DNA of 64,000 nt from Thuidium tamariscinum. Taxonomy: Eukaryota; Streptophyta; Bryopsida; Hypnales; Thuidiaceae. The stretch is taken from contig OX344749.2 in NCBI GenBank assembly GCA_947034885.2, positions 40,391,682-40,455,681 on the forward strand. The letters are read 5' to 3'. Shown one piece after another: positions 20,821 through 59,104 of this stretch. Made by a program: the position numbers and the translations under genes. The notes under the pieces are model-generated. The model was not told where the DNA came from. It did not search any database and saw nothing but the letters and a program-made list of their open reading frames with translations. Each line of letters starts with the position of its first letter. Within the stretch, counting starts at the first letter, position 1.

Positions 20821-21201
20821 CGCTACCAATGCAGGGAACGTCGGGAAGGTCGGAGACATCATTTCAAATGAAAGTGCCTGGTAAAACCTAAAGAATATTT
20901 TAGTGTCAAATACAATGCAAAACTAAAAGCAAAAGTGAAACGTACAAAGTAACAGCTTTTCTTGGGAAAGCCAGTCATTCAATTTCCCAGTCGGAGGTTG
21001 GCGGGGCACAAGGTTCCCGTTCACACAGGCAGTTCCAGCCCGCGAGGCGAAGAAGAGTAAGTAGGTTTTTGTACAAGAGCGTTGGTTTTTAACTGTCCTT
21101 CTGCGCTTGCCGTGTTGTTCAGGAGTGTTGCAGCTGTCGGAGCTTTTCGGCTGTTGTTCTTGTTCTGCATTCTGCATGCGTTGCGAGGGGTTGCTTCGGC
21201 C

Positions 21202-24200
21202 ATGGTGCAGGCAGGGGGTGGAGCGCCCGTGGTGGCGTCGGCTCCCACGGCGTGTCAAGTGCAGTGCGCAGGGTGCCGCCGCATCCTGAACGTGCCGTCG
21301 GGAATTCTGAATTTCCAGTGTCCCAAGTGCAAGCTCCCGCAGGTGCTGCCTCCGCAGCTACGATCTCAGGGGTTAGCGCGCGGAATTGACAACACGAAAA
21401 TCCAGCTTCCGTGCGCCAATTGCCGCGCTGTGCTCAATGTGCCCCCCGGACTCACGCGGTTCGTCTGCCCGCAGTGTCGGGTGGAACTCGCCGTGGATCC
21501 CGTGAAATTGGCGGCGTACATGAGCTCGTTGTCGCAGTTGAATGCGCTCGGGAATAGTAGTAATGGACAAAGCGCCGCGCCGCCGACCGTGTCCGCCAAC
21601 ATGGATGGCATGGATGATATGGTGTGGAATAGTAGTAAGCAGCATCGTGGAACAAGTGGCTTTTCCATGGAGGAAATTAATGAGGTGCTTGAATCTCATC
21701 CGACTTGGAAAATTTTCTGCGACTCTTGATTTTGATTTCTTGAATTGTTGACGTCGTCTCTTGGTGGTAAATGTTTTGTGCGAGCTGTAGTTGTGATTTT
21801 AACCTAATTTTGAACTGTACGAAATGGACAATTACATTTGGAAATGGACAAAAAGTAAATAGAAACCTTGAATCTGGGAGTCGACCGCCGATGTATGGCC
21901 GTGTCGTTGATATTCTCTATTTCTTTGCTGATACGAACTATGGCATATCTAACTGAATCTGGACAATCCGTAGTCCAAAACCAATAATTAGTTTGAAAAT
22001 ATACACATAGCTTTGGGAGATTATCAAATAGATCTATGCAAAACATAGATGCGTGCAAAATATCGGGAGGTCTATGCAGAACATCTCACGATTTTTTGCG
22101 AACATGGTCCAGGATTGTACGAATAGTCTATATTTTGTTAAATGTGGCATCACTCTGCATTTAAAAAAAATTTGTTTCTGAGATTGTCGTCTAGGGCTTT
22201 ATTGTACAGTGTTGAATTCTTTTTGGCATATGAGGCTCATCAGACTCTTGGAATTTTCCACGACTGTTCATTTTCTTTCAATTGCCTACATCGCAACCAC
22301 AGAGGAGATTCTCTACGTTATGTAGTTGTGATTTTAGCCTAATTTTGTACCAGATGGGATTCCACCATAGATTCTACCGCTGTGCACTCTCAATCGCATA
22401 GAGGGTTAGACAGTCTCATTCTACCGCTTTGCACTCTTAACTTCCTTTTTGCGTCTATCGAAATTTTGTTTGCTTCACAGGTGGCTTTAGAAGTGGAGCA
22501 AGAGGAGGACGAAGCTGGAACAATAGGAGATACATTCACAGACTACGTAAGTGTGGACATCTGTATCCATTACTGAGCTCGTTATTGTTGGGAATATTAC
22601 CTTTGTCACACCACCTGTGCTCCTGCGTGTATTTGTCTTATGTGAATTATTTTTCAGCATTGAAAATTCTCGACTCTGGGAATCGCAATTGGAATGCTCT
22701 CCTTGCGATCGGATTGAAAAGTAACAAGAGATGTCAAGTTCGAGCGAAAATCAAATTTAAATTTGCAATCTGTGCAGAAACCATCGAAGCTGTCAATAGG
22801 CCAGCCACATCCTGATCCAATCGTGGAGACAGCTTCCTTATCAGCTGTACAACCTCCAGAGCCTACGTACAGCCTTCTTATTGCTGAGGAAATGGAGAAA
22901 TCCGGGTCTCTATCATGTTTGCAACTTGAGACTATTGTTTACGCCTCACAGGTGAGTGTCATATTACTACGCCTCGAAAGTCATTTTTTCTATTTGTATT
23001 TCAAGAGTGCGTCCCCCATACTTCAGGGGAATGTTGAGTTCACAAAGTTAATTAGAAAATGTAAAAATCTTTTCAAATAGAATTCTTTTTCAAGAGAGTT
23101 TAAAAAAAAGTTATTTCCGTGGACGGGTGCTTTGCTGCGTTCTACGGACTGTTTGATAACTCCGCACCGAAACCATTTGTGATCTGCCTTTGGTTAAAGT
23201 TTTCTATTGAGTGTGTGCCCGTGTTTGCAAATTTACACAAGGTTTTCTGTTATTGGGATATGCTTTGCAGAGGCATACGCATCATCTTGCAGACGGTTCA
23301 AGAGCAGGGTTTTTCTTAGGAGATGGAGCTGGAGTTGGTAAAGGCCGAACTATTGCTGGCTTAATCTGGGAGAATTGGAAACAAGGGAGAACAAAGGCTT
23401 TGTAAGCGGTGCTTCGATCCCGTATTATTCTGGTCATGAACTCGCGATCTTTAGCTTATTAGCACTCCTCTTAGGTTGATAATTTCGGTTGGTAATTATT
23501 GTTGTGTTGGATGGTGTTTTTTTGCATATTGGAGGATAGGTGGCTGTCTGTTGGCTCCGACCTTAAATTCGATGCACGGCGGGATTTGGATGACGTGGGG
23601 GCAATGGACATTGAAGGTTATTGTTCTATTCTTTCATTGCCCTTCTTTGCTTAGGATATGCACATATTCGATTTTGTTATGGATAGGCTGACTAAAGAGA
23701 GCTTTCAGAATTTTTTATGATTATTTTTTTGTTTGAAGCCTTTGGAAACCCTGAAGTTGTGATTTTACCGCATTCTATGTCATTCTCGATTAATTAGGTT
23801 TTTGCTTGTTCTTTGAAATCTTGTCTTTTGAAATTTCTGTTTTTGCCCTCATCCTGGTGATTATCTTGTCAGCAGTCTAATCTACTTTTCCATGTATCCA
23901 GTTCATGCGCTCAATAAGTTACCATATGCTAAACTGGATTCGAAAGCCGTGGGTGTCAAGGAAGGAGTGTTGTTTCTCACTTATAGTAGTTTAATTGCTT
24001 CTTCTGAGAAGGGGAGATCAAGATTGCAGCAGTTGGTACTGTGGTGTGGTCCTGGTTTTGACGGGCTTCTGGTTTTTGATGAGGTCTCGACATCGCACTT
24101 CACTTATCCTTCTGGACTTTATTCTAGCTAGATTCATACCCATCTTCTGTCGTCGCTTAAAGTGTTTCACCACTGGAATCACAGTCACTTCGTACTATCC

Positions 24201-33219: not shown

Positions 33220-33846
33220 CTAGGATTGGATGTACCATCCATCAACGGAGAGATTCAAGCCTTCTTCTGATGAGAGTTTTGAAGGAGTGGGGCCGAGGGC
33301 GAGCGTGTCCATTGGGGCTTTCACCGGTACATTCTCTCCATGATATTTGTATTGCTGGTCGATTTTATTCACATGCTGTCTTTGGTGCCTGCTGCAGTGA
33401 TGGTGCCAATCATGGTGGTGCCCATGGTGATGTCTCCGGGAATGGTGTCTTTTGTGATGCCGTCTACGGTGATGGTGCCGTCTGTGGTGCTCACTGTGGT
33501 GATGGTGCTGTCTATGGTGATGTTGGGGTCTTCTTCGACGGTGCCTTCGACCGCGGCGTCGGCTACGACGGGACCTTCTTCTGTAACGCCTGTGAGGCAC
33601 AACAGCGCGAGCAATGGCACGCGCCTTGGTGGATTTGTAGATCGTTCCCTTCCGCAGGAGCTTCCCTTTCTGAATTAGGGTTTTGAAAGTGGTGTGGATC
33701 AATTTCTTCTTCCTGGAATCCAGTTTCGCATCGTAAGTGACCTCCAGGTGCTTGCGTACTTGGACCAAGGTGGCACCTCTGTGCTGCTTGGTGACATGAG
33801 TGATAGCTGCTCGGACCAAGGCACACATTGGTATAAGCCTAAGCAT
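33220..33846 (-). CDS. Protamine-like sperm chromatin protein derived from linker histone H1 (H15 winged helix plus Arg/His-rich tail)
   Basis: One 208-aa open frame. Residues 5-68 align with the H1/H5 globular domain: VRAAITHV for helix 1, VQVRKHLEVTY for helix 2, KKLIHTTFKTLIQKGKL for helix 3, then a basic KLLRKG. Residues 86-106 are almost all arginine, and 107-155 consist mainly of His and Arg with scattered Ser, Gly and Trp. A 50-residue, less basic C-terminus follows. There is no usual H1 N-terminal tail or lysine-rich C-terminal tail. Arginine-rich proteins of H1 ancestry are known as sperm protamines in liverworts and charophytes; assigning this protein to compaction of sperm DNA is inference from composition. 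An in-frame stop lies just upstream of the ATG at 33846, though a spliced 5' exon is possible. The other frames of this repetitive region are shadows. The exact 3' end is uncertain. Confidence 0.7.
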   Translation of the reverse strand: MLRLIPMCALVRAAITHVTKQHRGATLVQVRKHLEVTYDAKLDSRKKKLIHTTFKTLIQKGKLLRKGTIYKSTKARAIARAVVPHRRYRRRSRRSRRRGRRHRRRRPQHHHRQHHHHSEHHRRHHHRRRHHKRHHSRRHHHGHHHDWHHHCSRHQRQHVNKIDQQYKYHGENVPVKAPMDTLALGPTPSKLSSEEGLNLSVDGWYIQS

Positions 33847-34130: not shown

Positions 34131-35121
34131 TGTACAGTCAGGTCCAGCTCAATTACGAATTTTTGCACAGTTAAAGAAAATTTCACTACAGCCAACTTTG
34201 CCACCCTCTCAAGGGCTGAAAAATTAGTTTTTTACTATGAAATTTTTTGTACAAGATCATTTCTAAGTTGATAACATATGTGGAAATTTCAAGGCCAAAA
34301 GATTCACCCAAAAAAAGATATGCAAAATCTATCAACATGTGTAGTTGTAAGCTTTCACTGCTGTCAACTTTGCCAATGTCTCAAGGATTGAAAACTTTTT
34401 CGTTTGGCATGAAATTTTTGGGATGAAATCATCTCTATGTTGATTATATGTGTGGAAAATTTCAAGGCCAAAAGATTCACCGAAAAAAAGATATTCAAAA
34501 TCTACTAACATGTGTAGTTAAGAAAAAACTTTCACTACTACCAACTTTGACACCCTCCCAAAAATTGAAAAAAAAAGTTTTGGCCATGAAACTTTTTTCA
34601 TGAGATCATCTTTGTGTTGATAACATGTAAGATAAATTTCAAGTTCAAAAGATTCACACAAAAAATATATTTGAAATGTACCAATATGTACATCGAAGTT
34701 GGCAATAGTGAAATTGTCCCTTATATTGACACATGGTAGTAGATTTCGAATATCTTTTTTGGAATAAATTTTTTGAACCTGAAATTTACGACACATATAA
34801 TTAACATAGAGGTGATCTGATGACCAAAATTTCATGGCCAAATTTTTCTTTTTCAATTTTTGGGAGGGTGTCAAAGTTGATAGTAGTGAAGTTTTTTTCT
34901 TAACTACACATGTTAGTAGATTCTAAATATCTTTTTTTGGTAAATTTTTTGACCTTGAAATTTGTCACATGTGTTATTAACATAGAGAGGATCTTGTGAA
35001 AAAAAATTTCATGTTAAAATAATAATTTTTCAGCCCTTGGGAGGGCGTCAAAATTGGCAGCAGTGAAGTTTTGTTCCCTGTGTATGCAAGAATTTGTAAT
35101 TGAGCTGGACTTGACTGTACA
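34131..35121. repeat. Giant inverted repeat (foldback) 1, about 990 bp
   Basis: The left end TGTACAGTCAGGTCCAGCTC and right end GAGCTGGACTTGACTGTACA are inverted copies. Each arm is built from diverged units of about 175 bp (recognised by CAACTTTGACACCCTC, TTTCAAGGCCAAAAGATTCA and CAACATGTGTAGTT), in forward order left of about 34700 and inverted right of it. It starts 285 bp upstream of the H1-like start codon. Transcribed, it could form a long double-stranded RNA. Confidence 0.85.
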
Positions 35122-36503
35122 GTGGGGTACCAATCAAAATATCGTTTTTGAATTCGCAGTGAATTTTTTTTCAGTACTGCCAACTTTGAAAGCCTATCAA
35201 GAGTTCAAAAATTGGTATTTTATCACGAAATTTTTATCACAGCATTATCTTTAAGTTAATTATATGTATGCCAAATTTCAAGGCCAAAAGATTCACCGAA
35301 AAAAAATTATACAAAATCTACCAACATGGGTAGTGGTGAGAAATATTTCACTACTTTCAACTTTGACACCTTCCTAAGGATTGAGTTTCTTTTCTTTTTT
35401 CATGAAATTTTTGTTATGGAACAATTCAATATGTATAAAAAGTTTCAAGGCAAAAATTTGTTTTTTTAAGAAGATATTTGATATCTCCTAACAGGTGTAG
35501 TTTTGAGAAAATTTTCACAATTGCCAATTTTGACACCCTTGCAAGGGCTGAAAATTTGGTTTCTTACCATGAATTTCTTTTTGTGAAGTCATCTATATGT
35601 TGATAATATGTGCTACAAATTTCAAGTTCAAATGAATTACCAAAAAAAAGATATACAAAATCTCCCAACAAGTTGTGAGGAGGAGTTTTTGAGCCCTTAG
35701 TATAGAGTTATTTTATGGAGCAAAGTTTGACACAAATGTAAAAACTCAACCTCACAACTACACATGTTGAGAGATTTTGAATATCTTTTCCTGGGTAAGT
35801 GTTTTGAACTTGAAATTTGGAACATATATTATCAACATAAAGTTGATCTTATTTAAAAAAATTCATGTTAAATAGACAAATTTTTAGCCCTTGAGAGGGT
35901 GTCAAAGTGGGCAATAGTGAAAATTTTCTCACAACTACACATGTTGGGAGATTTTGTATATCTTTTTTTTGGCAATTCATTTGAATTTGAAATTTGTAGC
36001 ACATATTATCAACATATAGATGACTTCACAAAAAGAAATTCATGGTAAGAAACCAAATTTTCAGCCCTTGGGAGGGTGCCAAAGTTGGCAATTGTGAAAA
36101 TTTTCTCAAAACTACACTTGTTGGGAGATTTCAAATATCTTCTTAAAAAAAATTTACCTTGAAACTTTTTATACATATCAAAAACATAGAGATTGTTTCA
36201 TGAAAAAAAAATTTCATGGCAAAAGAAAAGAAACTCAATCCTTAGGAAGGTGTCAAAGTTGAAAGTAGTAAAATGTTTCTCACCACTATCCATGTTGGTA
36301 GATTTTGAATAACTTTTTTTCGGTGAATCTTTTGGACTTGGAATTTGGCGTATATATAATTAACTTAAAGATGATGCTGTGGTAAAAATTTCGTGATAAA
36401 ATACCAATTTTTGAGCTCACATGAGGCTTTCAAAGTTGGCAGTACTAAAAAAAGTTTCACTACGAATTCAAAAACGACATTTTGATTGGTACCCCATTGT
36501 ACA
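35116..36503. repeat. Giant inverted repeat (foldback) 2, about 1.4 kb, sharing its edge with foldback 1
   Basis: It begins TGTACAGTGGGGTACC and ends GGTACCCCATTGTACA. Just inside are the inverted partners TTTTTGAATTCGCAGTGAA and TTTCACTACGAATTCAAAAA. The arms consist of the same 175-bp unit family as foldback 1, about three units per arm, with the centre near 35720. The TGTACA terminus is shared by both foldbacks, as if one inserted against or duplicated from the other. No coding sequence is present. Confidence 0.85.
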
Positions 36504-41704: not shown

Positions 41705-42826
41705 TCACGGAATGCACAGTATATGCCAAAAGGAGGCTAGGATTATCACCGAGAAAGAAAACAGAGGGAGGACCACGAAAATGTCAATCACCACTGGCGT
41801 TGCCCTGGCCTTCAGAGAATCCTTTCGGTTCTTGCGCAAGTCGAAATACTTCGGGCCGTCTCGTCTGAGCTCATGTATTGTTTGCACAGCCACCTGAGAA
41901 ACATTTCCCTCGATAGTCAGCTCTCAAGGAGAATTAAAAAACCGAGAAACAATTGTAAATGACCATAATCTCTCCAGTTCATACACCAAGGTAATCGTAC
42001 AGTGTGCGTGTACGTGTCCACTGGTCATTATGCACAATTCATGTCAATAAGCCTATAACGAAATGAAAAATAAATGAAGAAGGCAAATCACACCACGAAC
42101 ATCTTGGAAGGACAGGCACAAAGAGAATTTGAGAATATAATGCAAACCCACCACGACTTGCTACCCAATCACCACTCTGTGCTAACCTAGAGTAGTCTCT
42201 CCGGGGTGCTTGGGCTAAGGAAAAATCGATAAGGAACTCCAACCTTAGACTGAAACGTCCACTTAATACTTCAAATCATCAGAAAATGTGTTTACCAATC
42301 TCCAGTTAGAGGCAAGAAACAGTACCATCAAAGTCTGTTCTTCCGAACTCAGAATGCTTTCCAAGGATCCAATAGTTCGGTACTTCTGGAAAACGCCACG
42401 AACAGTGATGATCGATGCAAGAGATGACAAGGAGAGTGGCGTCCACAAGTTACGACACTCTAAGAGATTCGACTGCGCTATACAGAGAAGTAGCACCGCT
42501 TGGAACAGAAGTGAAAGACAAACTAAACGAAGAATTTCATCATGCGCCTCTTTAATCTGCTTGGAGTGGCGGGCAACTCTTCGCTCGAAGAGTGTGATCG
42601 TCTTGTCCAGATATTCTTCCAACGCCCGGGCGCGAAGGTCGGCCTTAATCCAAACCAGATTGGACGGGCTTAATCCACCCAAATGTTGCTCTTCGGAACC
42701 AAATTTTACGTCCAAGGCCTGAGGATACTCACAAAGCCCCTTCCCACGCACAGCCTTTGCATTCTCTAGGGCAATGGTTGGACAACTCTCAGTCGGTGCG
42801 ACGGCAATCTGTGGCGCGGTCCCCAT
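41705..42826 (-). CDS. Plant membrane protein of unknown function, two exons, 239 aa
   Basis: Exon 1 is 42826-42296 (177 codons), with donor gtaaac. Exon 2 is 41893-41705, after acceptor ctcag. The junction is phase 0 and gives NWRL|VAVQTIHELRRDG. The N-terminal half contains LSPSNLVWIKADLRARALEE, followed by a charged helix (ITLFERRVARHSKQIKEAH) that could be a short coiled coil. Hydrophobic segments lie near residues 106-121 (LSLLFQAVLLLCIA), perhaps 131-150, 163-175, and near the C-terminus (IDIFVVLPLFSFSVIILASF), so there are two to four membrane spans. No signal peptide is obvious. I do not recognise the family. A telobox-like AAAACCCTAAAA sits 14-25 bp upstream of the start codon, a motif common near transcription starts of growth-related plant genes. 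Confidence 0.75.
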
Positions 42827-58564: not shown

Positions 58565-59104
58565 ATGTGGAATGGAAAATGTGTTCAAGAAGAAAATGAT
58601 GGTAAACATTTCAAATATGATTTTGATTCTTTTTATTCATGTGAAATAAAAAATGCTCATCGTCTTGATGATGGAAGACATTCATTTGAAGAATGTATTT
58701 CACCAAGTGGTAAATGCTATTCTAGATGTCATCCACAAAAATATCCTTTTGATCCTTATTATGGACCCAATACTCCTCCTACAAAAATAACAAGAACTAG
58801 TACTCTTTCTAAAACTCTTAGTTCAAAAATTTCACAAAATAATGACGACATATACAATGATGAATTTAGATCATTTAGCAAATTTGGAGTTTTGGGTGAT
58901 AGCAACTCAAGTAAATGTTGTAACAATAATTTGCCTTGGATTAAATATGAATCTCAATGTGAGCCAAAAATTCAATCAAAAAAAGAAGAAGAAAAAGAAA
59001 TTTCAGAAATGTTTAGAAATAGGACTCATTTTTGTCCAATACCTAATACAAAAATAAATAGAAATAAAAGGTATAGTAATATTCCTTCATGGTGGCCCTC
59101 TTAA
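58565..59104 (+). CDS. Unrecognised 179-aa AT-rich protein gene with nine cysteines
   Basis: A 180-codon open frame (with stop) in DNA rich in A and T, where a stop should appear about every 12 codons, so chance is very unlikely. Codons end almost always in A or T, unlike the GC-rich psaK and DnaJ-type genes. The protein is hydrophilic, with no signal peptide or membrane helix. It has Cys in SPSGKCYSRCH and KCCNNN contexts, a PFDPYYGPNTPPTK segment, a Ser/Thr-rich middle, a KKEEEKEISEM charged helix, and the end SWWPS. I do not recognise the family. No neighbouring gene suggests a role. More exons may lie upstream. Confidence 0.6.
   Translation: MWNGKCVQEENDGKHFKYDFDSFYSCEIKNAHRLDDGRHSFEECISPSGKCYSRCHPQKYPFDPYYGPNTPPTKITRTSTLSKTLSSKISQNNDDIYNDEFRSFSKFGVLGDSNSSKCCNNNLPWIKYESQCEPKIQSKKEEEKEISEMFRNRTHFCPIPNTKINRNKRYSNIPSWWPS

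Follow-up and report, generated by a model that had tools for sequence, protein, structure and literature searches.

Positions 33220-33846 on the minus strand of the window (the whole 64,000-nucleotide stretch of DNA analyzed here) hold a single open frame encoding 208 amino acids, in which an H15 winged-helix domain continues without a change of frame into an Arg/His tail. The coding sequence (33223..33846, stop codon 33220-33222) is uninterrupted and apparently consists of a single exon, and its start region was found by alignment to be similar to that of L013, the closest paralogue. Eight residues precede the linker-histone globular domain, which was located by profile matches and is rich in Lys (residues 9-72, 33631..33822; 11 Lys, 5 Arg). 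It is followed by a linker (residues 73-84, 33595..33630) that ends in VP, directly ahead of HRR, and lies in the alignment at the [VI]-x-x-R-basic junction of the gene family described below. The tail continues with an Arg block (residues 85-106, 33529..33594; 16 Arg among 22 residues) and a His/Arg tract (residues 107-158, 33373..33528; 27 His and 11 Arg among 52 residues), the latter with His runs of three to four and also with Trp, Asp and Glu. The protein ends in a near-neutral C-terminal extension of 50 residues (residues 159-208, 33223..33372; no Arg, one His). The initial annotation had described an H15 domain running in frame into Arg and then into His and Arg; frame, ends and junction were confirmed, whereas the term nearly pure Arg overstated the composition of the block. 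The less basic C-terminus and the missing H1 N-terminal tail that it had noted were both found.

Among 401 stop-to-stop frames of at least 50 amino acids in the window, this frame alone reached at least 40% Arg plus His over 50 residues. It peaked at 82%, compared to a maximum of 30% across 30 Markov-simulated windows of equal size, which rules out a chance frame. A pure DNA repeat was also ruled out, as the tandem repeats of 12 and 18 bases in the His/Arg tract are merely weak (scores 37-55). When 20 periods were tested by codon shuffling, that of 30 bases stood out with a z of 4.0 (next 12 bases, 2.7); some duplication history therefore remains in the tail sequence, which counts against rejecting a DNA repeat. 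Over the eight tails of the family Arg is encoded by 78 AGR and 128 CGN codons, with both types in all eight genes (a single AGR in L006). Since both codon types are used, selection seems to act on the Arg residue rather than on a DNA repeat.

The HMM match that an H15 domain calls for was obtained from the family and fell short in the single protein. Alone, the 33220-33846 protein matched PF00538 at E 0.0042 with 17.7 bits, below the cut-off of 22.4, and Stork_head scored slightly better (E 0.0018). Against solved structures the protein alone retrieved no H1, the single match being a ribosomal protein on the tail (E 0.12). PF00538 was matched by all eight family members at E up to 1 (best 1.7e-9), and ANAPC2 by two of them; in the linker-histone search of the genome seven of the eight scored above the PF00538 cut-off (24.5-40 bits) and the 33220-33846 gene below it (19.5). 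When the profile of the eight members was compared by hhalign to the three ordinary H1 of this genome, a probability of 96% and an E of 4e-9 were obtained over 63 columns. The best match of this profile among solved structures was 1ghc (GH1, E 2.9e-4), with H1 chains next, in support of the proposed H1 ancestry. Because the paralogues match PF00538 and the ordinary H1 profile, the doubt over the assignment is resolved and, as judged by profile comparison, the domain is a linker-histone H15 domain, established through the family rather than through the single protein. An AlphaFold model from the single sequence was of low confidence (mean pLDDT 54.6); its three helices succeed one another as expected, and the block means for residues 11-60 are 65-79. 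The isolated domain folded alone (mean pLDDT 59.3) was no improvement over the full-length confidence. A Foldseek search with the single-sequence model gave nothing significant, a yeast H1 domain ranking fifth at E 2.8.

In the 363 Mb assembly, the linker-histone search identified 18 places: three ordinary H1 genes (L002, L003 and L004), eight family members and seven different H15 proteins or fragments. At least eight members make up the family, each an uninterrupted frame in which the H15 domain is followed by an Arg/His tail (L006, L008, L010, L011, L012, L013, L014 and L018, the 33220-33846 gene included), spread over the five chromosomes C1, C2, C3, C4 and C6. Four protein searches with different members, taken to an E of 10, each recovered all eight, the weakest at 0.005, and added no other complete member; the count is a lower bound, as these searches scored the best candidates only. 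Two of the four also found L046 (C5:22745183), a truncated relic of the family domain within another frame. At least eight frames and a relic rule out a singleton gene. L013 is closest to the 33220-33846 gene (58-59% domain identity, tree support 97/92). In a tree of 16 short H15 domains the eight members formed one clade apart from other H15 proteins in 22% of bootstrap trees, and L007, L009 and L017 may fall among them.

To judge from substitution patterns, the H15 domains are under purifying selection across the eight genes: pN was smaller than pS in all 28 family pairs, including those of the 33220-33846 gene with its seven paralogues. For the domains of this gene and L013, dN was 0.27 and dS 2.80, and dN/dS ratios are rough as dS is saturated or infinite in many pairs. 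With synonymous change near or beyond saturation, the family genes are old. All eight members carry the [VI]-x-x-R-basic junction, a pattern defined after inspection of those eight sequences, and it is a candidate processing site.

In the ordinary H1 genes, where splice sites and the start of exon 2 were read by eye, a GTAAGT donor follows exon 1, whose last residues are HPSYQV (L003, L004) or HPSYLV (L002), and the first codon of exon 2, in phase 0, is ATG. Aligned to this opening, the family starts 3-13 residues ahead of it; the value 3 stems from L006 read from its second Met (11 from its first), and the range is 7-13 if L006 starts at the first Met. These starts lie close to that of the ordinary exon 2, which offers a simple and likely cause for the loss of the N-terminal tail. 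The ancestor of the family would be an H1 copy that retained exon 2 with globular domain and tail, gained its own start and lost exon 1, and with it the N-terminal tail; the start at exon 2 may thus explain why the tail is absent.

Arg and His are mixed in all eight family tails, which together hold 206 Arg, 126 His and 50 Lys, whereas the tails of the three ordinary H1 contain 43-46 Lys, 4-5 Arg and no His each. The shift from Lys to Arg is restricted to the family tails, and the domain of the 33220-33846 protein stays Lys-rich. Ordinary plant H1 (L002-L004) share the homologous globular domain and differ in two respects: exon 1 supplies an N-terminal tail, and the C-terminal tail is rich in Lys and contains no His. 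With eight residues ahead of its domain and 27 Arg, 30 His and 5 Lys in its tail, the 33220-33846 protein is built otherwise, in agreement with the initial view of a tail unlike that of plant H1. His characterizes the family as a whole and is not peculiar to this gene, although its product is the only one of the eight with more His than Arg.

The assembly contains eleven chromosome-size contigs of 17.5-54.2 Mb as well as organelle contigs. C18 (103,123 bases) is mitochondrial, with cox1-like frames recognized by eye and an unbroken match over all 271 positions of the nad7 family. C19 (115,000 bases, a round figure, so that the sequence may be cut) carries rpoB- and ndh-like frames, also recognized by eye, and an ndhH-type match. 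No rpoA was found on this plastid contig; a bacterial-type rpoA lies on the nuclear C2, and C5 has a second, weaker match. Mosses have lost the plastid rpoA to the nucleus and possess an intact nad7 and a mitochondrial genome of near 104 kb. The organelle genes thus point to a moss host, which implies swimming sperm.

Together with a moss host, the anatomy of the family makes a role in sperm the best reading. The 33220-33846 product is probably the precursor of a moss sperm nuclear basic protein (protamine-like) derived from linker histone H1, and the family would be expressed in sperm. According to passages in PMC11607694, PMC10858212 and PMC9402228, liverwort protamines are cut from several male-germline H1 histones, and text from PMC6290024 places MpPRM, a liverwort protamine-like gene, under the control of MpDUO1. 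Mosses are counted among the plants in which protamines or protamine-like proteins condense the swimming sperm (excerpt of PMC9668745), and in moss spermatids the nucleus condenses along the spline (excerpt of PMC8128824, a text in which the terms protamin, linker and arginine are absent). Few species of plants with swimming sperm have described protamines, Chara, Marchantia and Marsilea being named in an excerpt of PMC10858212, and the literature found names no moss protamine sequence, as judged by titles and abstract openings.

The protamines of Marchantia polymorpha, as cited in the three papers on liverwort protamines named above (D'Ippolito et al. 2019, PMC6827293), resemble the moss family in their H1-type precursor, Arg-rich part, several genes and swimming sperm; eight frames with an H15 domain and an Arg-rich tail form a corresponding multigene set here. 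The liverwort proteins are further characterized by cleavage, C-terminal di-aminopropane ends and male-germline expression. The family described here differs in its moss host, and its tails are rich in His. By this analogy, the moss family is best read as a counterpart of the liverwort protamines from male-germline H1. In spermatids, the globular domain would take the protein to linker DNA, where it would replace H1. Whether attached or cut free at the [VI]-x-x-R-basic junction, the Arg/His tail would neutralize DNA phosphates and thereby compact the sperm nucleus. Arg would provide a permanent charge and His a weaker, adjustable charge or metal ligands, and the packing might be easier to reverse after fertilization.

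Two tests for shared regulation were negative. The DUO1 motif RRCSGTT did not occur within 1.4 kb upstream of any of the eight genes, where four or five occurrences were expected over the eight regions from its average rate in the window (0.41 per kb), and no k-mers beyond chance were common to the eight upstream regions. The H1-derived protamine-like reading, as put forward initially, draws on the H1 ancestry, the single frame through the tail, the non-H1 tail and the absent N-terminal tail, and the regulatory tests speak against it. So do the low confidence of the single-sequence models and their lack of a significant Foldseek match, the PF00538 score of this protein below the cut-off with Stork_head slightly ahead, the 22% clade support in the tree, the probable mobile sequence upstream described below, and the Trp, Asp and Glu in the tract and the unshared extension of this copy. 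The negative regulatory tests and the real H15 domain would suit a linker-histone variant outside sperm, for instance a stress- or tissue-specific one with an Arg/His tail that tunes chromatin binding in vegetative cells. We consider such a variant unlikely, as the composition of all eight tails is protamine-like and not H1-like, and the liverwort precedent in the three sources named above links such H1 proteins to sperm.

Upstream of the 33220-33846 gene, beginning about 320 bp from the start codon, three arrays of 177-base units lie in both orientations in a foldback-like arrangement (34169..36141). A 321-base piece of it (34180-34500) is repeated genome-wide at about 98% identity, with at least 119 matches and, among the best 40 of 2376 candidates that were scored, at least 40 at 98-100% (its own place included). 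The region is probably a young mobile element, whose insertion may have altered the promoter of the gene, and expression of this member is therefore less sure than that of the family. The repeated element would fit a decaying copy, with a promoter hit by a mobile insertion and an Arg tail drifting to His via CpG transitions. So would the excess of His over Arg, confined to this member, and a C-terminal extension that is long and not shared: compared to the extension of L013 it showed no homology beyond chance, 334 of 2000 shuffles being equally good. Decay of this copy is nevertheless very unlikely. The pN values lie below pS towards all seven paralogues, the gene has a short branch of its own (0.11, compared to 0.5 for its sister), and His is common in all eight tails.

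The drift to His can be addressed further, since CpG transitions from CGN codons as the sole source of His should also raise Gln, Cys and Trp, and few of these were observed: the eight tails hold 126 His, 23 Gln, 11 Cys and 2 Trp. In these tails the ratio of His to Gln (126:23) departs from that of CGY to CGR codons (80:48; Fisher p 3e-5) and His outnumbers Cys 126 to 11, in a test in which codons are non-independent across paralogues, the mutation model is simple and stops are uncountable in open frames. His thus appears to exceed the expectation from CpG transitions, which supports, and does not prove, selection for His or against the alternatives. Using standard pKa values, the charge of the tail of the 33220-33846 protein was computed as +25 at pH 7.4, +39 at pH 6.0 and +52 at pH 5.0, a relative change larger than in the other seven members. 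A dependence of compaction on pH or metal ions through His, as proposed initially, is a possibility. That mosses pack their sperm DNA by means of an H1 lacking exon 1 and a code that mixes Arg and His, with His selected for pH- or zinc-reversible compaction and the 33220-33846 member as the most switchable of the set, is a tentative and rather doubtful proposal. Since other poly-His proteins collect in nuclear speckles, the His runs of three to four in residues 107-158 might also suggest a nuclear protein rich in Arg and His whose target is RNA, for instance one that gathers in speckles, which is extremely improbable given that the globular domain is that of a linker histone.

The tails of animal protamine-like (PL) proteins are rich in Lys and Arg and are not known to have a His content comparable to that of the moss tails, and eutherian protamine P2 is not known to have an H15 domain. 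PL proteins are intermediate between H1 and protamine, as stated in an excerpt of PMC10858212, and they resemble the sperm proteins proposed here in an H1-related core with a basic tail in sperm chromatin, yet belong to the animal lineage. P2 is described in part of PMC7126135 as Arg-rich, with conserved His, and as shortened post-translationally, its His helping to bind zinc together with Cys. P2 thus relies on Cys too, whereas the moss tails hold 0-4 Cys each and follow an H15 domain. The moss family would offer an independent case for comparison with the His-bearing mammalian P2 and bears on the age of the H1-to-protamine route in plants. Knock-out and proteomics in laboratory mosses could be aimed directly at the eight moss genes with an H1 core and Arg/His tails.

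Several of the other H15 loci in the genome have layouts of their own. L007 (C8:7525279), L009 (C6:9552329) and L017 (C6:9558554) show the reverse plan, with a basic Arg/Lys-rich part ahead of the H15 domain; L007 and L009 also carry an acidic, Ser-rich part downstream of it. L019 (C1:11803426) is a short frame in which an Arg/His-rich stretch precedes a strongly diverged H15-like domain that scores 18 bits, short of the cut-off; a second copy of it was not found in the genome. L015 (C1:54086409) and L016 (C1:54107210) are fragments with an identical frame of 58 amino acids that matches part of H15, oppositely oriented and about 21 kb apart, close to the end of C1. In L005 (C4:8360002) the H15 domain is followed by GRP-type basic motifs, an arrangement that we take to resemble plant GH1-HMGA proteins.

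Elsewhere in the window, two uninterrupted frames of 187 and 179 amino acids (42263-42826, minus strand, and 58565-59104, plus strand) had no Pfam match at E 0.01. The two zinc ribbons of FORGETTER1 are both matched, at E 1.5e-30 and 5.4e-21, by a frame at 21082-21729 on the plus strand.
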